The notes beneath the pieces are model-generated. The model was not told the DNA's origin. It saw nothing but the letters and a program-made list of their open reading frames with translations, and did no database searches. Shown here piece after piece: positions 23,701-55,291 of a DNA stretch of 64,000 nt (position 1 is the stretch's first letter; every line of letters starts with the position of its first letter). Made by a program: the position numbers and the translations under genes. Source of the stretch: Branchiostoma floridae (taxonomy: Eukaryota; Chordata; Leptocardii; Amphioxiformes; Branchiostomatidae); assembly GCF_000003815.2 (NCBI RefSeq), contig NC_049979.1:14803459-14867458 (forward strand). Reading direction: 5' to 3'.

Positions 23701-26700
23701 GCTTGGCCTAAAATATAACTGGCAAAAGAGATGAACTTTCCCCTGCACTTATTTTGAACCTGTTACCTGTTCAGACCCAGACTCCATCGCCCCTGAGAGC
23801 AGAGGTCTGCTCCACTTCTGTAAAGTACAGGAGCTGCTGCTGGATGTGTACATCACCATCAGTCAGCTGAACAAGCAGGCGACTCAGGCCATGGGCATGG
23901 CAGAGAACAATCCAGAACAGGTACTGTAAACATAAAAAAATAGATAAACTTTACATTTTCATAGAGGAAACTTTGCATATTGATGACATTTAAGAGGACA
24001 CTTCATTTTCTTTCTATTTGTGTTAGGTTAAATTCTTTAAGTGATTGCTATGTCCATGTCCATGTCCTCAAACATCTGTTTTAAGTGCCGCAAAAACACT
24101 GATAGAGATAGGTGATAGGTGATAAAAGAAGACAGACGTTTGTAGTAATGAATAACCAGTTTGTTCTGTAATCCGCAGACCTTGGCCGCCACCCTGAGTG
24201 TAAGTGTGAGTGAAGCGCTGCAGTACCTCTCAGCCGTCGATGACTTCATGAGGGAGTCAGCAGGCAACAGGGTGCACTTCAAGGACCCCATACACATGAC
24301 CCCTGCAGCCTTCCTGTCCTGTTTCATCTGTCCTTCTCATCATGCAGATGACAATGCACCTACTGTGTCTTCATTGAAAGTCCTCATGAGTTCAGACATT
24401 GATGAGCAGCTGTCACTTAAACTAGGTGAGAAATGTTGTTGTTTTTCTTCTTTCTAGTTACAGTTGATATAGTCAAAGACTTAATATAGGGGAATATCCT
24501 CAGTAAAGTAGTTTCTTTGCTTAGTTCTTGAAATGTCCCACAAAGATGTGGTGTACTGTAGGCTGTAGGATAATTTGATGATCAAATTACATTTGTCTTG
24601 TTTTATTTTTTGCAGGAACATTCCTGTTCAAATGTGGTCTGACGGGAGGTGACTCCATTAGTGCCCTGTGTACCTGTCTGGAAGGGTCAGGCATCCCTGC
24701 TGCTGACCTCATGGTTAGTCGCAAGCTTCTGCCTGGTTTGTACACATGTATGTATGTATGTGTGTGTAGGTGTGTGTGTGAGTTTGTACACATGTATGTC
24801 TTATGACAGGAGATATAGCTCAGGTATCACAAGTGCAGTAGCTTGACAAAATGTGACCACTGTATACTTCTACATAATAGCAGACTAGTACACACACACA
24901 GATGTCATTGAGATTAAAACATATTTCTCTCGTTATTAAGTCATTACTCCTGAGAGTGTGGCTAAGCAGTGAGACTGAGCTGATACGCCCAAGAGATGTG
25001 TCACCCGTCAGCAACCTGCACTGCCTCCTGGCAAGCATCACCAGAACTGCAGGTCAGTCAGACAAATTTGTAAAGGGAAAAAAGGGAAATTGTATGTGGG
25101 TTTGTCGAGAAATTGTTATTGATTTGTGGTATGTGCTAATCATTTCATGAATAGATAAGAATGTATTGCTACAATAATGCCTAATTGCTATCATAACCCC
25201 TGCCTTGTGTGCTGAAAATACTGGATAAAAGGTAACATACGTTTCTGTGTCACACCGTGCACTATTTTTGGTATACTAAGCTAAGTAATACTGACCATGT
25301 CCACTATGCATGCCAACCCCTGGCTGTCTGATGTCTGTCTGATACTAATGAACTAGTAGCCACTATATGGATGTTACAGTAGCAGCACATGTCTCATTAT
25401 GATTTTTTCACAATTATTGATAAAGCTGTCCATGACCCCCTCCTAACACATGATCCAAGTCCCTCCTTAATTTTTTTTCACTTTGTTCTTTTATTTTCGT
25501 TTGCCCCCATTAACCTGTGTGTTTCCTACCCTGTGTGACATGTCCAGATGCCCATGCTATTCATGCAGAGCCCAACACAGCATCCCCCTGGTGGCAGAGT
25601 GTAAGGGACATCTGTACTGCGGCTGAAGCACCTGCCAGCGCCCTGATGGCAGCTGTAGCAGCCAGGAGCGTGGCTGCATCTGTTGTACCAAACAACAGAA
25701 GTGGGAACAAAGAACAGGTGGGACTTCTGAACTTCCTCTGATGTCTGAAAAAGAGGTTGTGTTTGCCTTAGTGTTCGCATTTACAGTTGGATTGGTTATG
25801 AACACGATAGCACAAAGCATTTGAATTTTCGTAAATTAAGAATATTGCAAGTCTCAAAAAGTTGACTTGAAATCAGCTCTTAAAATGAAAAGAGACACTC
25901 TATATGTTGCAATACAGGAAAGTCAAGAAGACAAAGACACAGACCAAGAAGCAATTTCCTTGAGTTCCCCCACCCCAAGCACCACCAGCACTGACACCAT
26001 GGAGGAATGGGAGACTGTTGCCATGGATACAGAACATTGGAACCTGCTGGTGCGGCAGCTGGAGGATGTGGTGGTACTGAGCACGCTCCTGAGGAGTAAG
26101 GTCAGGGACAGTGTGGATCGTCCTCCTTCATATGCTGAAACCATGGGGAAGGAACACAAGGTGGTCTCTGTCAAGGGCCTGCTGGAAGGTGGCAGCGGTA
26201 GGTCACAGGCATACACACACCAAGCACACCGTAACCCACTATTAATGCATCCATTGACCAAATTTGTGCTGTGTGATACTGACACAAATGAAGATGAATT
26301 TGAAATCTACTTTGTTGGACTGTTTTGACAGGATCCATTGCAGCATTGGTTGCTAACTGGGTGGCAAGAACAGGGATTCTACCCAGCATGCTCTCTGTCT
26401 CCCATCATGCTGAGGGTGAGGAGGAGGAGGCTATGGAGCTGGGAACAGATGTGACCTCTGAAGCTGCTCTTCCAGAACTGGAGAGACTAGCTGGTATCTG
26501 ACTGATCATCTTTCTTTGCAAAACTTGGCTGCACAATCTGTATTGTTTTGTGGGCATGTTACTTGCCTCTGAGTAATAAATTGCTCCTAATTAGGAGGTC
26601 ACTGTTGGCTGTACTGATTACCATTTGTTAATCTCTCCTGAAGTGAGGCATGATTGCCACAGAATTGGTGCATTTATTACAGCACTACATCCCAGATCAA

Positions 26701-29700
26701 AATTAGTATTCCACACATCGGATTTCAGGTCTCCAGTAGATGTCATCCATCAAAACCAACTTTGTGTGGCTTGATGGTCATTTCGATTATGACCTGAAAA
26801 AAATTTGCAGGTAGTTTCCCTGCTATGTTTACCAGCAGTTCTGTGTTGTTTTGTCCATGTTAGGCCGTTACCGAAGCCACCTGGAGCGTTTCCCATACAG
26901 CCTGGACCCAGAGGTGCTCCATGCACACTGTACCTGGGAGTATGTGGTGCAGTGGAATAAAGATCCAGAGGTAGGGGAAAGACATCCTTGCATTTCATAC
27001 ATTTTCTTTTGACTTGATAGATGGTATGGAATGCTGACTAATACTAGTAGTGTAAATTATGTCTTTCAGTTGTTGCCCCTTATCTCCAATTTGTGGCCTC
27101 AAGTGGTAACTTAGTCTGCTAAAGATTCAAAGCAAATTTTCTATCATTTCAGGTTGTAGCATTACTGGAAAGGTCCATTGAGCATCTCAAGTTTGTTGGC
27201 AATCCTTATCTGCAACATGGTGAGTTGTTAGTATGTGTGCCTAGTCATGTCTTCGTTCTTGATGTTGATTGGTGCAGTGTATCTCAGTGGTGTTGATTGG
27301 TGGTGTCTGCCCGTAGTACTCATTGGGTCCTTTAGTAGTGGCTGGTTGAGTTTGTGTCCCTAGTATTGATTGGTTGTGTTTGTATCCTTGGTGCTGATTG
27401 GTTGGTTGTGTGTGTGTCCTCAGTACTGATTGGTTGTGCTTGTGTCCTTGGTGCTGATTAATTGGTTGTGTTTGTGTCCTTGGTATTCATTGGTTGGTTG
27501 GTGGTGTTGTGTCCTTGCTGATTGGTTGTGTTTATGCGGTTTGGTGATGCATTAGTTGCAGTTATGTATGAGTTGCAGTTCCTAGTTTTCTTAAACTATA
27601 TTTCTCTATCAAAACTAGGAAAAGAAGAAATGTTATTAAGGAGGCTAGCTAAAACTTTCCCAGAACAAGGTTATATACCAAACTGAATAAAACAAAAGTG
27701 CAAAAGGGGGCTGAAGTGTTGTTTGTCAGCAAAGTAGTTTGAGAATGGGCAGTAGTTATCATGCCTACAGTTCTGATGATACTTCATTGGTTTTGGCATG
27801 TGTCTCTAATACTTATGTTATCATGTTGCTATTGTTGTTGGCTTCTTTTTCCATCATTTAATTCAATCAAACGTGTACATCAGTGACTAAGGGTGTATCA
27901 CATTATTAGTGCAATAATGATATACAAATGTACACCTACTACATAGATTTTGTTGTTGCTTACAGGTCTGGGCTGCATGATGTGGCACACCTTTATGGTA
28001 AAGAGATTCTCAGCAAGTGCTTTTCTCATGGAAAAGGTACGGGAACGCATTATGCCGAGGGATATTTATTTTTTAGTTAGTTGGTTTGCAGGTGTGTAAA
28101 CAGGATAATTGCAAAAGTTTCACCATGGGAACACAGATAGTTTCACCATTTTTGTAGTAGGAGGTAGACCTTTTGAGAAAAACTTGTTCTACAGTCACAT
28201 TGTAAGCATGTCAATTCAACACAGAATGAATTTGAAATTGGCAAACGGATCTGCTCTCTAATTGTTTTCAATCTACAGTGAAGTGTTTTATTTTCATTAC
28301 AGCCAGATTAGGAATTTTTTATTGGCTCCTGAAAGTTTTTTTTTATCTTGTTCATACTGGGTAATCTAAATTGTTCATCATTTTGTGTGTTTTTACATCA
28401 CTCAGGTTGGGAAGGCTCCAAAGGATCGGCTGTGCAGAAAGGTAAGATTTCACATTTTGAACCCTAACGTGCATTGTCAGTAAAAGCTCAACGTGTACAA
28501 TGTGTTCATGCTTTGCCAGCCTTCTTCTATGCAATAATCTTTTGTACCAATTTTTGGCACATAAAAGGACAAAGGCCACTTCAAGGTTACAGATTGCATG
28601 AAAAGTATTGGAGCTGCATCTCTTCTGCCAGACCAAAGACGGGCTCAACACACTGACATAGGATGGGCTGTGAATGCAAGTTAGGAACATTCCCTGCCCC
28701 CTTAAAACAAGAATTGTGTCATCAATAAAGATTTTTTGTTGTCATCTAATGTCTGCCCTGTGTTGATGCTCAGGATGTGGGATTGAGTGATGCAGCCTTA
28801 ACTAACTTCCTAGGACAATGCAACATCCTCTTACAAGTCATATTAGAGGTAAGAATTAACTATTTGGTGTATGTAGCAATGTACAAACTAATGCAAAATA
28901 TCTTGAAAAAGTATTTCCTTCATACTCCTGTTCTAAATGACAGCAAACAATTTGATGCCAGCTCTTGGGCAACCCTGTGATTTTAAGAGATGTACGACTT
29001 ATGCACCTCATAAAGATAGGTACTCTATGTAACTTTAGGTACAAATCAGGTACAAATATGTTTTCTATGTAACGTGTATCACATTACATGTGCCGTCTTA
29101 CATTTGCTACTTCTGTTGGTTATTTTGATGCATTCATAACACTTTAGTCTTACCTCTGTTTCCTTTGTATTTTGTTTTCTTGTCATCATTATTGGTGCTG
29201 TATTTAGATTCTTTCCTTCCCATAAAAGATTCTTGCAGGCATTGCTGGTGTGGGCCATGATTTTCCTTTTTCCATAAGGTGCACATGGTGATTGCAAGGC
29301 ATGGAAAATATACTTTGATATTCATCTCCAAAATTTGTCCTTTTTCATTTGATTTGCATTTTACGACATACTGCATGAAGATGCATCATTAAGGTAATTC
29401 AGTTCCTATGATGACCACTGCCTCAACAATCCCCACGTCCATCCAGCCGTCCCAGTGATAGGGCTACTGTATCCCTTCCGTTGCAGGCGGAAGTAGAGTC
29501 CCCGTACCCATTCTTTTCCTCACAGGCAGAGGTGGAGTCTTCCCATGTGCCCGTGTTTGACATCGAGGACCTGTGGCAGGCCACGCAGGGCCCCACGTCC
29601 ATCGCAGAGCTGGCGGCAGAACAGCGCGTGTCTAACTACCAGCTGCTGCAGCACCACATGAAGCTGAGCAGTATCATGCATGCTGTCATGGTCTTCTCAC

Positions 29701-31497
29701 TCAGGACAGTCAAACCGCTGTCATATTACTTTGATACAAAGGTTGGTTCTTCTCTATCATCAAGTTAACTTTGTTGCCTTGCCCTCAAATATCTATCCCT
29801 TTTCATATCATTTTGACTCAAAGGTTTATCTTTCTTTCAAGCACATTGATAAATAATCAACATTAGCTAGATTGTCCCAAACTGGCATATGCTCTTTTCC
29901 TAGAGGGCCAGGGGGTTGTCAGGGATACTGGTTAATGTAATGACCTAAGTACCTACAAAAAAAAGGATGAAAGGCATTTGAAAATGAATTGAAAGCTTCT
30001 CAAGAGATTTTTGAAAGGAGAATTGTGTTGTTTCTGACCAGGGCAAGAATGCATTCTTCAAGGATCTGCACTCCTACCCCCTCCTACCTGGCAGTGACAT
30101 TGACATCGCCATTACAAGTGCCCGGCAACAGGTAAGAATGTGCAAGTATGGAAATCTCATTCAAAAGGTAGTTGAAGATGGAGACACATAAGAAGTACAC
30201 TATTGCTGAACAAGTTTGACAGGTACAGTCAAAAGGAAACTGAAAATACATTTGTTGTACAACATCTTTTGTTTTATTGACTAACATATTCCCTGACCAA
30301 AGTGTCTGTTTTCTCATAGTTCCTGTGTAGAATAGTGAGTGCAGCAGTTGGAACCCTCCCCACCCCTCCAGCCTATCTCAGCATGGATGATGGTGCTGTT
30401 GCCATGGAGACAGACAAGGAAAAGGAACTGTTGCAATCTGACCTTGATGCCTACCAAACAATGTCAGACAATAAGGTTGTGTTGGAGGCCTGTACGTGGG
30501 CAGACAGGATGCTGGAGCTGGGTCAGAGGTTGGAGGTGGATGTAGACGTGGTCAGGAGACATTACTGTAACGAGCTGTATGGCAGGGGCTATGACTACCT
30601 GGGACAGGAGGTGAGCAACAGTTTTCACTATTTTAAACTCTCTGTGGATAAAGGAAATCTTAAGATATATCCTCTGGAGAAAGTATCTAGATGGACACAT
30701 TGCCTGAAAGTATCACATCTTTGTTGATAGGCCAAATGACAATAAATACATGTAGTATGGAAAATCGTTATAACTTAGAAGTTTTTCTTGATTCAGACAC
30801 TTGCGTTTTATCCTAGGTGCTAAACTCTGTGAATGAACGGTGCCAGCTTGGCTGTGACCTGCTCCTGCTGGTGGGGAAGCGTTTGTCCCACCTAATGTCC
30901 ACAGCAGAACCCAAGAGAAGTGTTCAGCTCCTGTCCAGACTACCCCCCACCCTGTCCACATGGCTCAAGCAGCAGGTAATTACAGCCTGCCATTCTACAT
31001 TTTTGGCTATTCTTACTATAGCATCTGTGTTGGTTTATCAAAGGCAAGTCATTAATGGATTGTATGATTCCTTTTCCTGTCAGTTTGGCTGGGTAACTCT
31101 GAAATAATTAGGATTGGAACAAGGTAGCCTGATTAAATCTAGTTTATAGCTGCCCTCCTCTGCAGGGTGTGGCCAGTTACAGCCCTGGACAGCAGAGTTT
31201 GTTAGTCTAGGAGCAAGGGATTTAGCTTTATACTGTATCCCTTTTTAGTCAACATTACCTTTTGTTCACTACTCCCATATATGGAGATGGAAATTGGTGG
31301 TACAATGATTTATCAGTTGTTTTATCAGTCTGTTAATTCCCTATTTCCAGAGTCCGTCCGACGTCCATTTCCCTGATGTGCCTCTGCTCCTGACTGCCCA
31401 GCTGTTGAGCCAGGTGGTCAGCCTTCTGCCAGAGACACACGGACAGTACAGCCTGGCAATACAACTGGTAGAGTCCATCGATATCATGAGGGACTGA
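11731..31497 (+). CDS. RAB3GAP2: RAB3GAP2, non-catalytic subunit of the Rab3 GTPase-activating complex
   Basis: RAB3GAP2 partners RAB3GAP1; the complex acts on Rab3 and as a Rab18 exchange factor at ER membranes. 36 exons splice in frame to 1428 residues (human about 1390): 11731-11833, 12000-12043, 13209-13347, 13618-13684, 13836-13883, 14295-14370, 17561-17662, 18081-18180, 18559-18654, 19782-19930, 20109-20188, 20604-20690, 21074-21213, 21545-21675, 21991-22049, 22210-22350, 22721-22803, 23163-23227, 23331-23433, 23775-23920, 24179-24425, 24616-24713, 24941-25052, 25548-25717, 25918-26197, 26332-26493, 26864-26970, 27153-27219, 27966-28036, 28406-28441, 28774-28848, 29526-29741, 30042-30131, 30320-30610, 30817-30975, 31351-31497. 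Landmarks: acidic [107 protein letters not shown]. The N-terminal propeller-like and C-terminal helical family regions are both present. The exon 17 donor appears to be GC. Exon 1 ([12 protein letters not shown]) is the least certain. Confidence 0.95.
12445..12555 (+). pseudogene. Isolated SAM-like domain fragment inside RAB3GAP2 intron 2
   Basis: An ATG-initiated frame encodes 37 residues ([20 protein letters not shown]...EEEVLKC) ending at a possible donor (tgc|gtatca). The pattern W..EA.L...TI.K[ML]...DL...E.L resembles the first half of SAM-like adaptor domains often found at the start of proteins in cnidarians and lancelets; that comparison is from memory. The second half was not found nearby, so it may be a stranded first exon, a gene fragment or chance. 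Confidence 0.3.
15376..16785 (-). CDS. Intronless odorant-receptor-like class A GPCR nested in a RAB3GAP2 intron
   Basis: A single 469-residue frame lies on the opposite strand in the 3.2-kb intron between RAB3GAP2 exons 6 and 7. Seven hydrophobic segments fit a rhodopsin-class receptor. Features typical of vertebrate-like odorant receptors: LHKPRHYL...LAVDDLIF...P before and within TM2 (about 56-80), ICHPLHY after TM3 (128-134), KAFKTLAPH entering TM6 (233-241) and [16 protein letters not shown] after TM7 (291-306). The DRY position reads ELYY (123-126), so the conserved Arg is replaced by Leu. The C-terminal tail is unusually long (about 160 residues), Ser-rich and partly repetitive. Amphioxus is known to have intronless vertebrate-like ORs; ligand and expression are unknown. 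Another amine- or peptide-like class A assignment is possible but less likely. Confidence 0.88.
   Translation of the reverse strand: MAEEDTDFSADTDSMYRTLSDSLLSRGLQTAYLIVSLVVAVGCSLLLIFLVWKKEYLHKPRHYLRCNLAVDDLIFTGCMIPMKISVLFSTDRSSLQLLCGLQRIVAPPSSISMFGTYLLMAIELYYFICHPLHYNSKVTAKNVGIGIVAVRVLALFFGVGPVIIKQLQSPGSLICDRDPLSSTSAAAIFRDIYQIGIILVVLAIIILYFFVFKEARKQQERDENRNLWLCQTKAFKTLAPHIIVLAVSVVTLMFMLVLKRAMLTKKNAPVSQHIAEKVASILYLTLSSMVNPIIYSVRQPEFRRALRELCGMRLNGPVAPAGAPPPILHGQMAVFSIPDHGEESASKEITPVPSSHEESQEDGQHGERCGTSQSIPSTDNTGRKLRLACAMSSSQSSPNIGSRARDAWPVSITSQFSPDAGKTSKNRPWLPRTSASHQSRPNTGKVPWLAGQHAQLVGTINQIQHPDTE
18862..19584 (+). mobile_element. TIR element of about 720 bp in the intron between RAB3GAP2 exons 9 and 10
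   Basis: Terminal inverted repeats of about 75 bp, differing at only a few positions, bound this segment: left 18862-18937, right 19509-19584. The outer end reads about ctttgcggcgttttgtt. An acidic ORF lies between them. No clear target-site duplication was seen. High TIR identity suggests recent activity or gene conversion. The superfamily is unassigned. Confidence 0.82.
18998..19387 (+). CDS. Acidic 129-residue ORF carried by the TIR element
   Basis: Starts at ATG 18998 and ends TAA at 19385-19387, wholly between the inverted repeats. The N-terminus is strongly acidic and aromatic ([14 protein letters not shown] then ITPYNYQP). The rest has no catalytic motif I recognise and no D,D,E triad. 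The start is reminiscent of N-termini of some transposon-borne proteins in lancelets and cnidarians, but this is a weak impression. Codon composition is GC-rich compared with flanking intron. It could be the first exon of a larger transposon gene truncated in this copy. Confidence 0.4.
   Translation: MMDSGDLEGVNEFEGFEEYEGFDPQNITPYNYQPRCQARSADETGEGGAVGATSVAPSTHPELIEAVSVVEWDGTDVETFLAGVTTNYAGRHGAPLPTFQLDELAEKNLLFSYVRNTFCATDEVVTNSK
24735..24805 (+). repeat. GT/ATGT microsatellite flanked by direct repeats
   Basis: A tract of alternating tatg and tgtg sits between two copies of 'gtttgtacacatgtatg' (about 24736 and 24783). It lies in the intron between RAB3GAP2 exons 22 and 23. Confidence 0.7.
27240..27545 (+). 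repeat. Degenerate minisatellite ('tccttggtgctgattggttg' unit)
   Basis: About eight to ten imperfect copies of a 28-40 bp unit containing 'gattggttgtgtttgtgtcc' fill most of the start of the intron between RAB3GAP2 exons 28 and 29. Unit length varies through extra 'ggttggttg' blocks. Confidence 0.75.
29487..29525 (+). other. RAB3GAP2: Alternative in-frame 5' extension of RAB3GAP2 exon 32
   Basis: Two acceptors 39 nt apart precede this exon: ttgcag ending at 29486 and cacag ending at 29525. Both are followed by nearly the same coding sequence (AEVES). Using the upstream one adds 13 residues, [13 protein letters not shown], in frame. The arrangement looks like a small tandem duplication of the splice site and exon start. 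Use of either site needs transcript data. Confidence 0.6.
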
Positions 31498-35500: not shown

Positions 35501-37575
35501 GAATATAGACTACCACACTTTCCCACAAGTAATCCTACAAATGTTAGAGGATCCCTAGCCATAATTGGCCTCTGATATCACCTCTGAACCCATTAAACCA
35601 GACAAAGCCCAAACCATGAGTCTTGGTAAACTTTGAGAAGGAAAAGAGTTCAAAGACAGTATCTGTTTACCCCCTTGTTGTACTGCATGATCCCCAGGGT
35701 TGGGTAGACCCATGCACATGCAGCTGGGAGGATCTCGCTGTCAGCAAAGTTCACCCACTGTTGGACCAGCGCAGCAGACTTGGGACTGGTGCCCCGCAGC
35801 TGATCATTGCCCACTGGAACAAGATTAATATTACGTCAGTAATTATATCAGCGGGATTTTGGCAAGTCTCAAGTACATTGTACGTGCGATTGGGTCAGCA
35901 ATCCTGAGGAAGGCCATATGTATGGTCAGGTATTCATTAAGTCACTTTTCTTACTTTGGATTAGACGTTAAAACATACATCAGGGTAGCAGTCTTGCTCT
36001 TACTGGATTCCAGTGTGAGTTACAATTATTCCATACCTTAAGTACAAGGATAGAAATATACATGTATCTGTATGTTGAAGACAGTTCCCAAATTTTTATC
36101 TAGTTTCTACACGAGCATCAGACCGAGATGTATCATCAGGACTTCAGTATTACGTCCCCGTATAAAATACGGTCATCATTTGCAGGTTGAGTTTTGTTTA
36201 ATTCAATTACAATTCTACAGATAACTGATAAGGCATTGAACATGGCCATCCTTGCCTTCAAATGCTGGGACCTGAAGACGAACAAGAACATGCGATGTAT
36301 GCAATGAGCTATACATATCGTGCAACACTTACTCCTTAAAGAACACCTACTCATAACATTCACTATAAGTGTCAAGCAAGTTTACATTATATAAATTTAC
36401 TTAAGGTAAAACTTCATCCTTTTGCCAAGCAGCTGACTATCAGTTTATGAATCCAATGAAGTAAGAATAAGAAGGCCTTTTCGACAAGACAAAACATTGC
36501 ATAATGCATATTATCATTAGATGTTTTGGAAGCTAATGCTGATGCAAGAACCTGTAATAATACTGCTGTAGAAATTCTACAAGCAGAGGCTGGATGGTGA
36601 AGCAAATTGACTTACAGTAATAAGCGATGGCGTTACTCTCGAAGAGGCATGTGCCATCCTTGCCTTCAAATGCTGGGACCTGAAGACGAACAAGAACATG
36701 TGATGACAATATGTTGGTGATACATTGTATCGAAAGAGCAACATAGTTTTCTTCTTTTTTTTTTTTTTACATTTATTGCAATATGAACTGTAGCAAAATC
36801 TATCATGCAAAGATAGAAAATAACATTTTGGTTTGAATAAAATAGTTTGTATGTAAGATTTCACTGACTACAGTCCACACTCCACAGTAAGGTATGCACG
36901 TGTTTCATGCTATAGATTTATCATACTAGATTTTTCCATGCCCCCCTCCCCCAATAGAGTCTAATAAAAAAAAAAGTAATATGTTTCCATAACTAGAAAG
37001 TGTATAACATCCGGTTACCGATAATCTTAGAATTGTACTGACATGAAAATAAAAACTCAATGCATCAATTACGAGCCGCACATTTCAAGTTAAGCGTTCT
37101 GGCTATTCTTTACACTGAAGTGGTGCTCTAACATTACTGACGTGGCGAACAGACGACTTTTGCAAATATTTTCCGCCATGTGTGATTTGCATGCTGAACA
37201 AATTTTTCCCTGTCTGAAAAAAAAGGAGCACAATCAATAAAGAAATTGACGTACCTTCCCGACGGGGAATTTCTTGAGAAAGTCAGGCGTCTTGTTGGTT
37301 TCGCCGAGTTTGAAGGCCGGCGGGTCCGAGACCACGTTCAGCTGGGCACCGCTGTACTGTGCGGCGACCTGGGCCTTGTAGGCCCGGAAGTTACCCGGGT
37401 AGGTATATAACGTCTGGAAAAACACAATTTCACACACAATCGACAAAATATCAACACAAACACATAAAGTGACATCTTCTCAATATGAAATGACCCAAAA
37501 CTGAGAAGTTGTCATTACATTTAACGCCGGATGGGCGAGATTTGAGCAGAAGTTCCAACTTACACCAGAGGCCAT
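32511..37575 (-). CDS. EEF1G: EEF1G, translation elongation factor 1 gamma
   Basis: eEF1G is the structural subunit of the eEF1B exchange complex that recharges eEF1A with GTP. Exons in transcription order: 37575-37564 (only MASG), 37413-37255, 36679-36616, 35813-35671, 35339-35196, 34853-34724, 34332-34149, 33565-33393, 33086-32962, 32672-32511. All phases agree and give 431 residues (human 437). Residues from about 5 form a GST-like N-domain ([40 protein letters not shown]). A Lys/Glu-rich linker ([20 protein letters not shown]) precedes the conserved C-domain ([55 protein letters not shown]-stop). A TOP-like tract precedes the start codon. Its neighbour PPP3R1 is divergently transcribed. 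Confidence 0.97.
36245..36292 (-). pseudogene. Duplicated EEF1G exon-3 acceptor and exon start
   Basis: 48 bases are identical to 36653-36700, which covers the intron end, acceptor and first 27 bases of true exon 3 (VPAFEGKDG). The copy lies in the following intron, about 408 bp further along the transcript, and diverges after 'gatggc'. Read on, the frame stops within about 10 codons, so as an exon it would truncate the protein. Confidence 0.75.
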
Positions 37576-41700: not shown

Positions 41701-44700
41701 ATAAGAGTCATGTCTTACTAATCCTTAGCAAACTGGATCTGCAGAATTTTCATGGGTGTGTCTGCTTCAAACAACTATGTGAGATGTGTTCAACATTTTC
41801 GTGCCACAATGATGCACATTGTCAGATGTTAACACTTTTATTTCTATGGAGACTTCTAGCTTCACATTCATCTGACTTCACAATTGACAATTACCAGAAT
41901 GATATTGGATGAATGATTACAACTAGGCAAGCATTAAATAGAGCCATCTAACTAACCTTTCTGAAAGGTATTTGCCGGAGAATACAAAGTTACCTCCTGT
42001 AAAAATTACATTCCAAATGGGATGGGATATATCCATTTATCTGGCTTGTTTTGTCATCACATTTGTCCTACCTGGAGCAAACTAGTTGATTAAAGTGTTC
42101 CTATGTATAAGACATTCACTCCATCATGTCATTAGATGGATAGTTTGATTACTGGTTAAAAATTCTGCATCAGACCCTCAAGGTCAGAGATGTCACCCAG
42201 AGATGTCACAAACTGCAGACATCTCACAACGTGTCAGCATGTAAGATGGACTACAATGGCCATAAACCTAAATTTACTATGTTTAAATATTAATGTTGCT
42301 TTCCATTGATAACTTTCTCCTAGTTCAGGCAGCCTTTTGGCTCCAAATTTTTTGGTATGATGTCAGACAACCCAGGGGAGGTTAATGTAGTTTTTCTCAT
42401 TTGTCAAATGAGGATTTCAGCTGTGCTAGTTTGAAAGGGCAGCGACAGTGCAAACAATTTTTGTCACCCTCCCTCCATTTCTGGCATTCACTCCCTCCCC
42501 TTCAATTTTGGAAATTTTTTTGAATGCCCCTTCACTTTTGCCTCCCCTCCCTTCCCCCTGCACCTCATGAATGGACCAGTCCTAATTGAAATTCTGTATG
42601 GATGACCCCCAGTTCTCTCCCAGTCCAGGTTATGGGCTAATTAAACATTATGTCACATGTACACACTTTTGTACGCATGACACGAACCCCACCAGACAAT
42701 TTGTACCAAGATTTGACTTGTCACGTACACTGGTGATGAAAATTTAGCTCATGAATGTAATGTCAGGAAGGAAGTACGTACTTCAAACACCACTTGTTGT
42801 AACAGGTAAGGATGGTTTTTTGTGTACTTCGTCAATTACATTTCGAATAGGCACAGCGTTGGCTGGATCAAATGGGAAACACTGATACTAGAAATTAGAA
42901 TGTTACACAGTACAAGTGGGTCTTGGACCTCTTGGTCTAGACTTAGGTAGTATTCACTATAGTTTAGCGTCAAAAATCTTTTGTATGATTTAAGTAATGG
43001 TTGATGAAAACCACTTCACAGCAAGCTTTGTACAACAGTGGACAAAATTAACAGATATTTTTTGTGTTTCCATTTTAGGGGAATGAATCGTCCCTTCCAG
43101 AAATGTGCACACATTGTAAGTATACCAGCTTTTCTTTCTGTCTGAAGAAAATCATGGCATATAACCTGATATAGCCCAGAGAGTACAGTTAGTCGATAGC
43201 TAAGTAGCTCAGATGTATACATATTTTTGTGATATGACATCTTAGCTTTCATATCATCATAAATCAACGGAATCTTTCTTTATCATTCAAGCCTTACACG
43301 TTTCAAAGATTCACAATTGTAATGCTGGTATGGATGACTTTGCCCAACATTGGTGTTTTTCCCTGTTCAGCAGATTCATTGCATAATTAGAACTTGCAGA
43401 TGAACATTGTCACTCTTGAAGATATACCATAGACAGTTGGATTTTTTTAAGGTTATAGACTGTTACTTTTTACCCATATGTATTAGATTTATTAGTATTA
43501 TTCTCACTCTTCTGTAAGCAGGGGGTTAAGTTGACACATTGTTACATGTATGTGATTAGGTAAACAATCAGGACTCAAAATTCATCATGGTTAACTGAGG
43601 GTAAATTTTACAAGTTATCTTCTCTGTGTGACAGACTTGTGAGGATGACAAAGTCACCCAGAATTGTAGTTGCTGTCTGTCCTTTTAATCTTCAAATTTG
43701 ATGTATGGATGAGCAAGTGACAGAAAAAAAAGGTTAAATTATGTGACCATGAGAATAGATATATCTGTCTGTCAAAGAATGCTGTCACATGAGATGCCAT
43801 CATTGTCCGTGCAAACAAAACAGGTAATTTCCTGTCAAGCTATTTTGTTTCAACTTGGCTACAGTATAATCTGTTGTACAAATCATCTCATGAGTCATGA
43901 GAAGCAGGAGTCACTGCATTTTCCCTGACCTCCAGCTCTTGATAAACATCATCCTTGGCACTGCAGCTCCCATTGCAAAGGACTGAAATATTCATCTCTG
44001 ATTTTTTTACTGGGGTAGACCTTACTGTCAGTGTCTGCTTTTCAGGGAGGCACTGCAGGTACATGAACAGTATACCCAGAAGGACAAAATTTTTGCACAC
44101 AGTTCACAACCATAGGAGATACCTGAGACAATGATAACAACACTGTGCCAGTGTTCAGGGGGCAGAAGAGTGCCAGCAGAGAAAGAGAGTCAGAGGCTCT
44201 AAATGTTTAGGTATAAACTTTCCTAATGTGTGCATAAAAGCTCATCTGTATATGTGGGTACAAGTATAAACCTTCCACACATAAGGTATTCAGTATTCAG
44301 TTCAAAACCACAGATGACAAATAAGGTGACTCCCAGATATATATACAGCCTTCAAAGTTGTCCTAATCTAGAAATGGCTGTAGTAGGGAAATTTGCCAAA
44401 TTTTGTTTGTTGTGTTGGAACAAAGTTAAGCTGTTTACAGTATAATCTTTCCGGTATCATAGACCAGTGCTCAGTATTGAGCCGGTATTGGCAGTCAATA
44501 TGTTTGGACCCAAGGGGCAAGTCTTTGGCTGTGGTCCCTTTTGTCCATCCAGCTAATGTTGCACCTGCCCCATCCAATATTTATTTCCTACCTCCTGTAC
44601 AAAAGGTCCCATGATATTCTGAACTGCTTCCCCAAAAGCTTTCATCAAAATTTGTTCACCTTGCCATAATGCTTTAGAAATTCAGTTGATCAGCGCTTTA

Positions 44701-47700
44701 CATAGCACTTACAGTACTTATTGTTGTCATGAAGAAAAATTATGGGAATGAGCAACTAATATTATATGAGTAATGGTAATAAGTGGAACATATATCACAC
44801 AAATTATCTCCCTTTCAGATGACAACATTCATCACATTGAAATGTAACTGTGCTACCATTGTACAATCACATTGTGTATAGGATTCAAAATGTTACTTTG
44901 TACAGTCTTCTCAACCATTGTGACTTGCTGTACTCCTCTTCATAAAGGAGTACACTTTTACCAACATGTTTCATTAAGAGCTTACCAGTGTTTACATCTC
45001 TTTACCCTTTAACTTCCCTACCAGATGAAGAAGGACCAGGCCAGGAATTACTGTGTATGCTTGAATAACAACAAAACCTCTGCACCAAAGACTGCTCCAC
45101 TACCCCACTCACTAACAAGCCAACATGCATGTTACTATTGTTAGACAAAGGCACACCAACTTGGCTTCTTGGATGTCAGCAATCAAGTTCATTGTGCATC
45201 AAGTTCATTGTGCATCAAGTTCATTGTGCATGAGAAGGGAAAACTCTTCTGGTATTCACCTGCTGATAGCAAACTTTCACCATCAAACAAACTTCTTTCA
45301 AAAGATGTCTCTTCTTTTAAATCAGAGTAAGACAGATGGCAGTTTGTTGTGTCTTTAGGTTTTATCACAGGTGGCTTGCATGGTATGTCTCTCTCATGCT
45401 GTGAGAGATACCTTATCTCAGTGTGTTCTTGTAGTCCTGACATTTACCCCCTTTCCTTCAGTTGACCCGGAGGAAATCCGCAGGTTAGGGAAGCGGTTTA
45501 AGAAGCTGGACCTGGACAACTCGGGGTCCCTGTCGGTGGAAGAGTTCATGTCGTTACCAGAGCTGCAGCAGAACCCACTGGTCCAACGGGTTATTGACAT
45601 TTTCGACCAAGACGGCAATGGAGAGGTGGACTTTAAAGGTACCTGCAGGGATGGCTGTGTTGTGATCTGTTGTACATAAACAATACATGCAAGGAATTAA
45701 GGATACTAGTAACAAAAGCATGAACAAGGGAGTCGTGGAAGTTTCTATATTTTTGAAGATGATAAAGATTTCTAGTTTCTATTTGTAGAAGACAGGTGTT
45801 AAGATGGAACAGAACTTGAGCCATGCTACTTGTGGCACGTATGATAGTAGGGGAATATGTTTAGATAGAAGGATAACTCCCTTCAGACTTGGACAGCCCC
45901 TGTTTATTTGAAGTATTTCATGCTGTACAGATTTTATTGATGCAATAGTGTCAGAAATTAGTTTTGTTGTGTATTTTTGATCCTCATGACTTTTGCCTCT
46001 GTTTTAAGTTTTCAGTATTTGCTCCAATCACAGCAGGCCCTTCCACAGAGTCAACTTTTGTGTTTGTGTGTGTATGTGCCATAACACCAGTCACTTTTAA
46101 TACTTTAAAATTTGGTTCTGTAACAATTTGTTGAAGTTGAATATCTGCATATGTTATGTCATCTGGTATAATAATATTGCAGACATTATGACAGAGGATA
46201 AGATATCAAGATATGGCTGGAAACGTACTATTTCAATTAACTTTTCAAAACTTCACAAGACAGTACAGTACAGTACAACTTTCTGCTCTTGAAATTAGTC
46301 GTCTAACTTTTCAAAAGTGACCGGTGTTTGTTGTAGTGGTAGCCGCCTAACTTTGACTTGTCTCTCCGCCTGCAGAATTCATAGAAGGAATGTCGCAGTT
46401 CAGTATGAAGGGAGATAAGAACACCAAGCTAAGATGTGAGTATATAGGTTGGGTTGGCATGCGGCTTTTCCTTTTTTTCCACACTACACCTTTTTCTGCC
46501 TTCTTTCTCCTTCTCATGCAGAGTTTATAGAGGGCATGTCGCAGTTTAGTGTGAAAGGCGACAAGCAGTCAAAACTCAGATGTAAGTACGTGACAAGGCG
46601 GTGTTTCATTGTCGGCACCGTAGATGTAGCGCTCGTAGTGGTAGCTCTGTAGATGGTGTCAGCCCCTGTGACGGTAGCTAGACCCTCAGCCCAGCTGCAC
46701 TTGTCTCCGCCTTTCACGGACCCTGTTTTGTAACCAGTCAGCACCTGGTTCCTTCCTTTGTGTTTCCACAGTCATGTGCTTTTCGTCATGTTGCATATTT
46801 TCTCACAACTTGCATGCAGCACTTGCCTTGTTGTTTATATAATTGTAGCTCTGCACTGTTGCTTTATCTGTTTTTTGTTGTTATGTATTTCATGTATGGT
46901 GATTACAAATAGGTTAAAGGAAAGTCTTTGTGAAAAAGGTCAATGCTCATTTGCATATAACATTAAGTCATATTTTCTACACAAATCACAAAGTACCAAG
47001 ACTTACATTGTAGATATTAGAGACCATCTGCAGATTAAAAGGCTGATAGCTACATTCCACTGTAACTTCCAGGGCAGTTTTTTATGGTTGGTACAAATTG
47101 TGGTAGAATAGGAAATGGAGATAGATCAGGTTGTACAACTTTTTTGTCATGATGAATAATCCAACTGTAGCCACATATATACAGTATAGACATTTTAAAC
47201 CCAGTGCAACATGGCTGCACCTTGGCATCCACACAGACTTTCAGTTTCATATGAAAGTCAGCTCAGTTTACAGCAAAATGGAAATCCTTGCAACTTTGAT
47301 TGCAGAGAGAGTGGTGTACTCCCAATACAGTATAATTTAGGGTTGAAGACATAAATATCTACAGTCCTGTAGCCCCATCTTGGGTAATATTGACACATAG
47401 TTAAGAATTTTGTACTTCATGGATTGTTGATCACTTACAAGAAGCAGTTGATGCAGAGAGAGCTCCTGTACAATCCTACCAACAATTACCTTCAACCTCT
47501 ATGACATGAACAAAGACAGCTTTGGAGTTGTTGAATGATTGCAAGAATCCACAGGTAACACTGAACAAACTGGCACCTTGGCTACATAACTTAAAGGTAT
47601 TTGGAACCATGCCTCCTCTCCACAGTTGCCTTTAAGATTTATGACATGGACAAAGACGGCTACATCTCCAATGGGGAGCTGTTCCAGGTGCTGAAGATGA

Positions 47701-48384
47701 TGGTGGGCAGCAACCTGAAGGACACACAGCTGCAGCAGATCGTCGACAAAACCATCATCAATGCAGACAAGGACGGCGACGGGAAGATTTCTTTTGAAGA
47801 ATTTTGTGAAGTAAGTATCTGTCAATCAGACAACATGTCACTGTTGTTTCCCCAACCTGTTTGTATTAGTGTGCATATTTACAACAGCAGTATCAGTGTT
47901 CTCGCCAGGCCTTTTCAACATAGGGGGTTCCTACACTGTGATTTAGGCTCATACACTGTGATATGCTGTGTTTCAACCAGCAATGGGGGCTTTTCTGTTG
48001 TTTTGTAACAAAGTTTACAAAATGTTGGCTTATGTCAGTACATTTGGCCTGGTGAGAGCACTGAGTATGAGTATGCTTGAGGTAAGCAGTCTATGGTGTG
48101 TAGCCTGGTCCAGCCCTTAAAAGGGCTATTTCTCCCTACAACAAATGTTTGATTATTATGGCTAAATGCCTTTTGACAAGTTCTCATGAACCTCAGGAAA
48201 AGTCAGTGTCCTGGCATATAATGCTGTTGTGTACATGTGCAATAATTCTGATCTTAAATAATATACATGGATGAAATACAATGTAGCTTTCAAACCAGAA
48301 CATTGTCTAAATTCCATTGTCTCCTTTCTGTCCCAGGTTGTTGGAAGTATGGATATCCACAAGAAGATGGTGGTGGAGGTGTAA
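38798..48384 (+). CDS. PPP3R1: PPP3R1, calcineurin B regulatory subunit, with two alternative linker exons
   Basis: Calcineurin B is the EF-hand, N-myristoylated regulatory subunit of the Ca2+/calmodulin-dependent phosphatase calcineurin. Exons: 38798-38800 (the ATG alone, followed directly by gtaagt), 43079-43115 ([12 protein letters not shown]), 45462-45638, then either 46376-46435 or 46522-46581, then 47626-47810 and 48337-48384. Phases agree and give 169 residues (human CnB1 170). Gly2 is kept for myristoylation. Four complete calcium loops: [12 protein letters not shown] (30-41), [12 protein letters not shown] (62-73), [12 protein letters not shown] (99-110) and [12 protein letters not shown] near 140-151. 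It ends [11 protein letters not shown]. The duplicated exon encodes residues 73-92: the last EF2 ligand Glu73 and the linker to EF3. Intron 1 is 4.3 kb and holds two TIR elements. Confidence 0.97.
39685..39897 (+). mobile_element. MITE-like element with 'tactgtaaatgca' inverted ends
   Basis: A 213-bp segment beginning tactgtaaatgcag and ending tgcatttacagta. Inside, gcggtggttttatgtttacgg and ccgcaaacttaaaaccaccgc form an extended imperfect hairpin, with a second partial copy to the right. It has no ORF and lies in PPP3R1 intron 1. Confidence 0.75.
40898..41275 (+). mobile_element. Short TIR element with an internal 21-bp duplication
   Basis: Ends are imperfect inverted repeats: left taaggcacgatctagacac then ggttttt, right aaaactgtgtatagattggg then cctta. 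Inside, a 21-bp unit (agcaggggtccccgatagc-type) is repeated at about 41047-41088. Non-coding, GC-rich relative to flanks, in PPP3R1 intron 1. Probably non-autonomous. Confidence 0.6.
45182..45229 (+). repeat. Three tandem copies of a 16-bp unit
   Basis: The unit atcaagttcattgtgc is repeated exactly three times, 230 bp before PPP3R1 exon 3. Confidence 0.9.
46376..46435 (+). other. PPP3R1: PPP3R1 alternative exon A (mutually exclusive)
   Basis: 60 nt, acceptor ctgcag, donor gtgagt. Encodes [20 protein letters not shown] after completing Glu from the upstream G. The final T completes Phe with the TT of the next constitutive exon. If spliced to exon B instead, the same T plus AG gives TAG. Confidence 0.9.
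46522..46581 (+). other. PPP3R1: PPP3R1 alternative exon B (mutually exclusive)
   Basis: 60 nt, acceptor atgcag, donor gtaagt, only 86 bp after exon A. Encodes [20 protein letters not shown]. It matches exon A at 45 of 60 bases and 17 of 20 residues; most base changes are synonymous. Val83 is the residue found in human CnB1, so B resembles the vertebrate form slightly more. Confidence 0.9.
47489..47538 (+). pseudogene. Decayed copy of the PPP3R1 EF-hand 3 exon
   Basis: The frame reads [16 protein letters not shown] then TGA, aligning with [17 protein letters not shown] of the functional exon 137 bp downstream; about 29 of the first 38 bases match. The base pair before it is AA where the functional exon has the acceptor AG. 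It looks like an old exon duplicate that lost its splice site. Confidence 0.65.
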
Positions 48385-51628: not shown

Positions 51629-54600
51629 ATGGCGTCCACTGGTTCGGTTGTCGGCGGTATCGTCTCTGTTTTGGTCGTAGTCGCCGCTCTTTACTATGTA
51701 CGACAACCACCTGATGCAATACTACGGGACAGGCTGGAGAAAGTCCTCCTGTCCCTTCTGAAGGCAGAGAAGAAGGCGAGCCTGGCGTCCAAGCCGCGGG
51801 TGGCGGTGGGGCTCGGGGCCTGCCAGGACGCCTTCGTCGACGGACTGGAGCTATTTGACAGGTAACATTATAAAGTAGTCCGGTGTAGAACCGGTTTTCA
51901 GTGCTGGTATTTTGGTCATCTCATCATGTCCCAAGCTGCATGAGTTCTAGAATGAGAGGGATTTTAATGATACAAATGAAAGTAATATCAAACACCAAAA
52001 CTGGCAAAAGATTGCGTTTGTGAACAGGTGAATCGCCGTCAGAATCGTCTAAAGACAAGATATGGTCGACGTAATTTGCAATAAAGCATGACTTTGTTTC
52101 ATCACCGCAGCTTCCTTGCATAGATAGAAAGTTATGTCAATGAAAATGTGGCCAAATCTACTAATTAGACTAAGGACAAATATGGACTTGATTAGACATG
52201 ATTGTTAATTGGTGGTTCCATCACGCGAACATTCCCCATGAAATGGGAAGGGCAACGACCTTTGGCTTGTAATTTGATGTTGGGGATCAAAATAGAAACT
52301 TCAAATATATGGATGGTGCACTGTTACTTCGCATGTCGTGTTGATGCTGCTTAGTATGCTTCTTTAGAAATGAGTTTCAAAAGTCATGGCACCACCCATT
52401 TGTCTTGAAGATAATTATAAGATGAACAAGTATAACAGATTCTAATCTAAAGCAAACAATGCTACTGTAGTTAAACTGTTACCTACCTTTTAAAGGAAAT
52501 GGCCTGAAAGTTGCTAATAAGCCTAAAGGTGATCATATCATTGGGTATATTACTTGAAGTTATGCTCTTGAAACTATGTGATATACAATGCATATTACAA
52601 GGTTATGTTATATGACTGACCTCCCTTTTTAGCCATAGTAAGCAAGATTTGTCCTGGCATTAATTATTTATGATTTTGTTCAATCATTATGATATTGCAA
52701 TAATGATAAGGTTGTATCCTCACCCACAGGTACAATCTGACCCCTCCAGCCCTGAGTGCCCACTATGACTCCATCCATGACCACCAGGAGCTGGCACAGA
52801 TGTTTGCCTACTTCTTCAACCATGGAGCTGCTGCAGAGTGAGTCAGCAAGAATTGCTAAGTACTGTCTAGGACATTACCCTTACCCCTGTACATATGCTG
52901 CTATATAGTATTATATGGGCTACTGTTTTGTGGATCTGCTGCATCATCTGCATTGAATTTACATTCTATTTGGAGGCAATACACAGGGCATCCCAGAGAA
53001 GAAGGCAGGCAGTGCCATCAAACATACATTATGTGTTAATGTACTAGTATCTACGTAGGTCTGCCCTTTTGGATTAACATTATATGATATCATATGACCT
53101 GTCACACATAACCGTAATTAACTGATAAGGTTGCACCAGCAGTACACATGAGAAGCTAATAGTAATGTGGTAACATCTGCATAAAGGAGCTTTACAGTGA
53201 GTTTTTGCTGTTTTACATGCAATTTGGCAGACTCCACCTTAATTATAGACATGTCCGAATACCATAGAACCCGCCCACTTTTGAAACCATGTCCAGATAG
53301 TCAACTAGACAGTAATTGATGTGTCCATAAGAATAATAGTAATAGTAGCCACTTATAAACCTAATAAATAATGTCTTTTCCTCATTTCCAGAAGGTACAT
53401 GGACAACATCACTCTGTTTCGAGACCTCATGGACATTGTTTACAAAATGCCAAATGCTAGGTTCGAGCTGGGTGGAAACGCACCTGTCATGGCAAACAGG
53501 TTTGCTGCTGAAGGTTGCAATGTTCTTCTGGGGGCACATCTTAGCACCGGTCTTAAAGAAGTGATGAGGGAAGGAATTACAGGTAAGGAGCTTGTGGAAG
53601 TCATCAGACGATTGTTATTTGCAGCACATTATAACAACATCAACTTTCAAGTAACACTTGTGTTGTAAAAGCTCTCTAGTAAAGCACACATGATTAGCAT
53701 GGGGTTTCCTGTGGCCAATGCTCTGTGAATATTCCCATAACAATCTCATCATCCTATGCTCTATGAGTATAATATGATACAGCAGTGACTTAATCTCTTT
53801 CTTTCCTTATAAGTTACTGGTGATGAAATAGAAGAAGATGACATCCACTTGATCTTAGAGTACCCACGGCAGAGTAGCTGGGGGAAATACATTTCACCAA
53901 GGGCTAACAGGTGGGTGATACAATGTTGGGGGTGGTACATTTCAGCCAGGGCAGGCAAGTCCAAATTTTGCTAATACATGAATTGTTACCTTTGAGAGTT
54001 TTGATTTGTCAGCTTGGGTAGAATCTGTATATGAATTATTTCTTTCACATGTAAACAATTTTCAATGAATTAGTCCCAAATACATAATTGTTAGGACTTC
54101 CACTATTTGATGGCATTAGGAGATTGTTTTAGCTATGATAGCGGCTAAGCCGAATTATACAAGAGATTCATGTGAAGTCATGATTTAGTAATAAGACATG
54201 AGGGGAGGATGGGAGGAGAATACAAATGTATAACTGAATATTGCAATAAGCCTGTAACCCTTTCAATAACATGGGGAAGTAACATCGTTTCCCTTGTCTA
54301 CAGATTCATTATCCACAGTGACAGGAACAACCCAAGCCTCAACTCTCTGGAGAGCTTCAGTGGGATGCTGAGGGACTTCAATCCTTCCCTGGTAGTGGTA
54401 GGAGGGATACAGATGATGGACAACTTCCCATTCTCAGCAGGTGAGGGACAGCCCAGTTAGACACCATGTACAATATATGTCCAATATGTATCATAATTTA
54501 ACTGAAATCTGTAATATGCTGCTTTGACAGACATGTAGCTTGCTCTGTTATTACCAGGTACAGTGTATACCCTGACAAGTATCATTGCCTTGTTAGTCAA

Positions 54601-55291
54601 ATGCTTGTTCTCTCATTTACTAGGTGAGCGTGAATCCAGGCTGAGACTCCTGCAGCAGATGTTGGTGTCCATCCCTGCAGAGCAGAAGACACACTTTGAG
54701 TTGGCCTCCTTCACGGAGCAGGCACTGTTTGAGGAGGTGCTGAGGTACATCGTTCCCTACATGGACTCCCTGGGCATGAATGAACAGGAACTACCCAACC
54801 TCTACAGCATGCTGCACGGCGGGAAAATCACGCTCATCTCGGACCCGGTGCCCCGTGTTGCCACCGTGCTGGACCACATGAGGAAGGTCTGGGCAACACT
54901 TCAAAAGGCTGATACTGGCGGGTCAAAACGTCGCCTGTCTCGCCTGCACGTTCATACGCTCGCTTTCCAGGCAATCATGACAAAGAAAGACTCTGGTTGG
55001 AAAAACACCATGTCTGCCGCAGCCAAGGCATCTCTAACAGCCAACAGGCATGTGTGCGGGTCCCCAAAGATCGATCTAGGGAAGGCCACAGTACTCATGG
55101 ACGACTCCTTCTCCACCAGTCGGAAGGAGGGGAGCTCTAGGATCCCTTTTAAAGAAAACCGACCAGTGTCCTGCTGGGAGGAACATGATTATGAGATCTG
55201 CATTGCACCTGTGCTGGTGTGCACAGAGGTGCGACAGACTGCAGGGGGAGGGGATAACATCTCGTCTGCCGGCCTTGTTCTGCAGATCTAG
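51629..55291 (+). CDS. ADPGK: ADPGK, ADP-dependent glucokinase
   Basis: ADPGK phosphorylates glucose with ADP as donor, giving glucose-6-phosphate and AMP; in animals it is an ER-associated enzyme. Exons: 51629-51861, 52730-52837, 53392-53582, 53814-53910, 54304-54440, 54624-55291; phases agree and give 477 residues (human 497). The start has good context (gctaaaATGG) and is followed by a hydrophobic anchor (GGIVSVLVVVAALYYV, about 9-24) fitting ER targeting. Family landmarks: RVAVGLGACQD, FELGGNAPVMANRFAAEG, HLILEYPRQSSWG, RFIIHSDRNN, VVVGGIQMMDNFP, HFELASFTE, SLGMNEQELPNL, RLHVHTLAFQ, PVLVCTEVRQTAGGGDNIS. The last contains the catalytic GxGD motif of the ribokinase-like fold. The long last exon encodes nearly half the protein. 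Confidence 0.95.

Follow-up and report, generated by a model that had tools for sequence, protein, structure and literature searches.

A tandem pair of phase-1 calcineurin B exons with an in-frame stop codon at their junction in the lancelet Branchiostoma floridae

The calcineurin B gene and its surroundings

We analysed a stretch of 64,000 nucleotides from Branchiostoma floridae (contig NC_049979.1, positions 14,803,459 to 14,867,458 of the forward strand), which we will henceforth refer to as the window and whose coordinates are used throughout. A gene for calcineurin B, a highly conserved signalling protein, spans positions 43079-48384, as found by joining its exons and comparing the product with solved protein chains (Table 1). 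The joined-exon protein aligned with 1aui_B over 153 residues at an E-value of 1.9e-89, with close likeness throughout (1aui_B and 1mf8_B are mammalian calcineurin B type 1 chains), and the first entry other than calcineurin B among the best 60 of 187 matches was the calcium-binding protein p22, with an E-value of 3.1e-34. Judged by this whole-length match, the gene product is calcineurin B and not calmodulin or CHP. The exon carrying the start codon lies upstream of the first exon in Table 1, and the ATG was supplied by hand in the joined translation. The last base of the constitutive exon that encodes EF1 is the G of Glu73, and the donor of this exon is the weakest of the five that were scored (93rd percentile of GT dinucleotides in the window).

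Table 1. Features of the calcineurin B gene, in coordinates of the window.
Feature	Position	Strand	Basis
Coding exon, 12 residues and first base of next Phe codon, 37 nt	43079..43115	+	joined translation, splice scores
Constitutive exon, EF1 and most of EF2 loop	45462..45638	+	joined translation, splice scores
Exon A, phase 1, 60 nt	46376..46435	+	frames, codon counts, splice scores, local alignment
A-B intron, 86 nt, second half pyrimidine-rich	46436..46521	+	branch-point and splice scoring
Exon B, phase 1, 60 nt	46522..46581	+	frames, codon counts, splice scores, local alignment
Relic of EF3-exon start, including 12 nt of intron flank	47474..47521	+	local alignment
Constitutive exon, EF3 and EF4	47626..47810	+	splice scores, joined translation
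Last coding exon, with stop codon	48337..48384	+	splice scores, joined translation

The calcineurin B gene is followed by a gene at 51629-55291 that is probably an ADP-dependent glucokinase: its open reading frame at 54563-55291 matches Pfam ADP_PFK_GK (E-value 3.7e-77), and its likely first exon at 51629 is without a Pfam match. Upstream on the same strand lie exons of a RAB3GAP2-like gene (25867-30727; Pfam RAB3GAP2_C, E-values 8.9e-16 and 8.7e-10), and the minus strand at 15376-16785 holds an open frame of 469 amino acids for a rhodopsin-type seven-transmembrane receptor (Pfam 7tm_1, E-value 1.1e-25). The window also contains an inverted repeat at 18829-19691, perhaps a mobile element, whose translated arms are 96% alike over 23 residues, and a direct duplicate at 36191-36717, in which an identical translated stretch of 16 residues recurs about 400 nt away; this duplicate is absent from the pairs that passed the 264-kb exon-pair scan described below.

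Exons A and B are adjacent, in the same orientation, equal in length and phase and 86 nt apart, and 17 of their 20 residues are identical. Each begins at the second base of the Glu73 codon and ends one base into the Phe93 codon. Either exon alone is in frame with both constitutive neighbours, leaving out both costs a net 20 residues but does not disturb the frame, and joining A to B or B to A creates an in-frame stop at the junction. The splice dinucleotides AG and GT are present on both sides of each copy; among all GT in the window the donor of A stands at the 98.3 and that of B at the 98.4 percentile, and among all AG the two acceptors stand at 98.7 and 99.9 (splice sites and branch points in this lancelet were scored with approximate human weights). 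An earlier note on this DNA had described a pair of 60-nt tandem duplicates of the same phase with good splice sites, 86 bp apart, either of which joins in frame to both constitutive neighbours; its coordinates, lengths, phase and dinucleotides proved exact, and the joined translations agree.

The resemblance of A and B is not a matter of chance. In local alignment exon A with short flanks scored 82 against B, whereas none of 2110 comparisons with other parts of the window, both strands included, scored above 30, by which chance similarity was ruled out. We also scanned the window together with 20 further 10-kb stretches of its contig, 264 kb in all, for in-order local translated pairs: of the 2788 examined, repeats and redundant pairs included, A/B was the only one that was in register, stop-free and equipped with good splice sites, a figure that describes rarity and is no blind test, as the thresholds were chosen knowing A/B and pairs spanning the ends of the 10-kb stretches are missed.

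In the 513-Mb genome assembly the calcineurin B locus is present once, on a contig of 35 Mb. Searching the genome with the protein gave 31 matches, two of them this gene, and no close calcineurin B paralogue, in a search that may miss diverged or short-exon paralogues (exons A and B themselves escaped it). Among the 29 matches elsewhere, 28 had an identity of 48% or less and one reached 62% over 45 residues. The latter, G000:C1:12170070-12170204, lies on the same contig about 2.7 Mb off, corresponds to residues 111-155 and contains an in-frame TAG; it is possibly a pseudogene or an exon of a relative.

Another duplicate within the gene has had a different fate. A stretch 140 nt upstream of the real EF3 exon (Table 1) shows 77% identity over 48 nt to the start of that exon and the 12 nt before it, with a score of 52 versus a maximum of 44 in 1582 comparisons (i.e., supported, not overwhelming), and it is found nowhere else in the genome. 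In place of the acceptor AG it has AA, five of its 12 codons are replaced (in the loop, an Asp has become Asn and a Gly has become Ser) and one is changed silently, and when read past the aligned stretch it runs into a stop. By these marks it is a decayed tandem duplicate, and thus a picture of what an unused duplicate in the calcineurin B gene looks like.

Divergence and selection in exons A and B

Exons A and B differ at 15 of 60 nucleotides, with ten codons differing synonymously, three differing nonsynonymously and seven identical. The three replaced residues out of 20 (residue of A first, that of B second) are M/V83, N/Q88 and T/S89. A Nei-Gojobori count gave a dN of 0.086 and a pS of 1.03, the silent estimate being coarse because it rests on only 10.7 silent sites. 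When 15 changes were placed at random, three or fewer residue changes resulted in 1 of 200,000 trials, meaning that the pair has been under purifying selection. We further calculated how often one unconstrained copy would acquire at most three replacements and no stop: the probability was 0.0019 for ten free changes, 0.019 for eight and 0.33 for five. A brief unconstrained period of one copy would fit this last value.

Given that silent change is saturated, both copies have probably been held to the protein for a long time. The duplication itself is old, with both copies probably constrained during most of its age, because the copies are so diverged and because the flanking introns, when aligned, revealed no homology around A and B above that of shuffled sequences. 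The earlier note had arrived at long selection on both copies from about ten synonymous codons and 17 of 20 identical residues, with changes confined to residues 83 and 88-89; our counts bear out each of these statements.

The same divergence bears on whether the pair could be an artefact of assembly, i.e., two alleles set in tandem. Lancelet genomes are highly heterozygous, which is what would make such an error conceivable. However, a 25% difference between the exons, together with flanking introns that are unlike each other, exceeds allelic divergence, no additional copy is found on other contigs and the locus has a single place in the assembly. On these grounds we dismissed the artefact, to which we assign hardly any probability.

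Of the two copies, B is the nearer to the mammalian chain, with 17 of 20 residues the same as opposed to 16 of 20 for A, and it has Val83 as the mammalian chain does, where A departs. Exon A therefore looks like the derived copy among the few sequences compared. Met78 is common to A and B and is Val in the mammalian chain, which hints at a duplication later than the split from vertebrates, or else at gene conversion. To our knowledge, vertebrates have a single such calcineurin B exon.

Divergence also speaks to the reading that only one copy is used, the other being a silent remnant or spliced at noise level. The decayed EF3 relic gives this reading a precedent within the same gene. Against it, both copies are open and flanked by good splice sites, and a free copy would be unlikely to combine saturated silent change with so few replacements; we thus consider it very improbable that one of the two is idle.

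A stop codon inherent to the exon

The introns split the Glu73 codon as G/AR and the Phe93 codon as T/TY. An mRNA that includes both A and B consequently reads TAG across the junction after residue 92, which is 243 nt before the last coding junction, and the truncation on double inclusion that the earlier note had read from the sequence appears at this very position in the A+B translation. Since T is always juxtaposed with AR, any tandem copy of this exon gives TAA or TAG at the junction. Of the nine possible point changes in the junction codon, eight abolish the stop, and every one of them costs a residue: Glu73 becomes A, G, V or D, or Phe93 becomes I, L or V. The remaining change is synonymous and turns the stop into TAA. 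In the EF2 calcium loop, Glu73 supplies the final ligand. Both residues are unchanged in the mammalian and the four fungal calcineurin B chains in the alignments compared. The stop is thus inherent to the exon and protected by protein residues, and is not an evolved addition; it need not have evolved, because it follows from the way the two introns split their codons.

The earlier note had gone further, proposing that mutual exclusivity is enforced by the in-frame stop. The stop itself was confirmed as TAG, but its enforcing role holds for one of two outcomes only: the stop blocks double inclusion, while an mRNA lacking both exons is still in frame and escapes. Moreover, the stop acts after splicing and comes with the codon splits, and the short intron between the exons may act earlier. 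For the double-inclusion product, nonsense-mediated decay is to be expected from the position of the stop, because the 243 nt from the stop to the last coding junction exceed the roughly 55 nt cited for decay in PMC7764535.

A related case is that of the exclusive exons of FGFR2, which are enforced by decay through a frameshift both when the two exons are included and when neither is (PMC7764535). In both systems double inclusion gives a premature stop with decay expected. FGFR2 relies on a frameshift, whereas A and B are 60 nt long and keep the frame, so that their stop arises from a split codon and double skipping is in frame. Among the causes of exclusivity named by Ivanov and Pervouchine 2018 are spatial constraint, spliceosome incompatibility, decay and RNA structure; they also state that the decay scenario is inapplicable to exclusive exons of 3n length (PMC6071210). 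The A/B junction stop is in principle an exception to this statement; a split-codon stop between 3n exons is unnamed in the available portions of PMC6071210 and PMC5740500. Exons A and B represent a case that is overlooked when exon length is checked against the reading frame.

How often could an exon behave in this way? Of the 7930 phase-1 exon-like intervals that this coding sequence offers, 294 (3.7%) carry such a junction stop, as do 88 of 7930 phase-2 intervals (1.1%). Symmetric phase-1 exons of 3n length that start within G/AR and end with T would have a stop at every tandem junction, in any copy number and from duplication onward, and would need no evolved regulation for it. Given the 294 intervals, they may constitute a predictable subset predisposed to forming exclusive pairs, a generalisation that in our judgement could go either way. 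The junction stop would also provide a simple, testable rule for exons born mutually exclusive upon duplication.

Probable exclusive splicing of the pair and its two predicted proteins

We consider it likely that A and B are a mutually exclusive pair, with each mRNA carrying one or the other, and that the gene gives rise to two calcineurin B proteins differing at residues 83, 88 and 89. Both copies would then be spliced, possibly under tissue control. The EF3 relic supports such a pair by its contrast with A/B, having five replaced codons to one silent and a lost acceptor. Criteria for tandem exclusive exons have been set out by Pillmann et al. 2011 (PMC3228551) and Hatje et al. 2017 (PMC5740500). 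Like known tandem-duplicated mutually exclusive exons, A and B are adjacent and homologous, agree in length and phase, have consensus splice sites and encode the same stretch of a folded protein.

Exclusion would operate in two layers. In the first, splicing from A to B would probably be disfavoured, because in this short intron the branch-point candidates (about 46-53 nt from donor A) lie so near that donor. In the second, any A-B mRNA that did form would read TAG, end after residue 92 and be passed to nonsense-mediated decay. The first layer recalls exclusive exons of the alpha-tropomyosin type, in which exclusion is steric and the branch point is close to the upstream donor. The short 86-nt intron and its branch-point candidates would fit this type; the candidates differ in being weak and in straddling the limit of about 50 nt, and they are predicted from the letters of the intron. 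Specifically, weak branch-point-like A residues lie 46, 48, 51 and 53 nt downstream of donor A, and a better match sits only 5 nt from the acceptor. Compared with the steric criterion of less than 50 bp from branch point to donor (Hatje et al. 2017; PMC5740500), these candidates are borderline, and with weak candidates at 46-53 nt steric exclusion may also be at work.

If both exons are used, the question arises as to what is gained. The replaced residues, as placed from the known fold, presumably follow the EF2 exit helix in the stretch towards EF3. At sites 83, 88 and 89 the mammalian chain has V, E and Q and the fungal chains compared have S, E, E or S, D, E; because they vary in this manner, these sites tolerate change in the chains aligned. 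The replacements are mild, and the two isoform proteins may be equivalent. The benefit could then reside in splicing regulation or dosage, including a switch by decay of the A-B mRNA, with A and B both in use for what is effectively the same protein. Such an account overlaps with the exclusive pair as to structure. Strong purifying selection and three mild replacements at positions variable between mammals and fungi are in its favour, as are the unequal 3' splice sites, which look like a regulated choice: exon A is preceded by CTAAC 25 nt before its acceptor, and exon B has a strong pyrimidine tract with weak branch candidates ahead of its acceptor. By contrast, all three replacements fall within seven residues with the other 17 identical, and A abandoned the V83 that B shares with the mammalian chain. 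We regard this account as possible though rather doubtful. Within the exclusive-pair reading, isoforms tuned to different functions and equivalent isoforms with separate splicing control would both fit the residues seen, and we have no strong preference between them. The earlier note had raised a tuned Ca2+ response or CnA binding as what two different linkers could provide; the replaced sites are ones that also vary between the mammalian and fungal chains.

If this gene, for which the assembly shows no close paralogue, indeed makes two calcineurin B isoforms, it would add a new layer to calcium signalling in a basal chordate. No report of alternative calcineurin B exons was found in the titles and abstracts of the literature searched, a partial coverage with most subscription journals outside it, and the word "calcineurin" is without occurrence in the available text of PMC5740500, PMC9741552 and PMC9013439. 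New here are the hard-wired stop, the weak branch candidates in the A-B intron, the EF3 relic and the finding of no second close gene.

Finally, we looked for sequence signals that might accompany a choice between A and B. Folding of positions 46340-46620 gave no signal of RNA structure (z -0.04; 90 of 200 shuffles fold as well). As regards competing complementary elements of the docker-selector kind, 45639-47625 contains four inverted repeats, none with an arm in the A-B intron; one of the four joins 16 nt of exon A to the intron before it (88%). Strings for splicing factors (motifs of Rbfox, PTB, MBNL, CELF, Nova and STAR) were near expectation over the same interval, in which TCTT was below expectation (4 versus 10.8); both CTTCT strings and four TTCT strings occur within the A-B intron.
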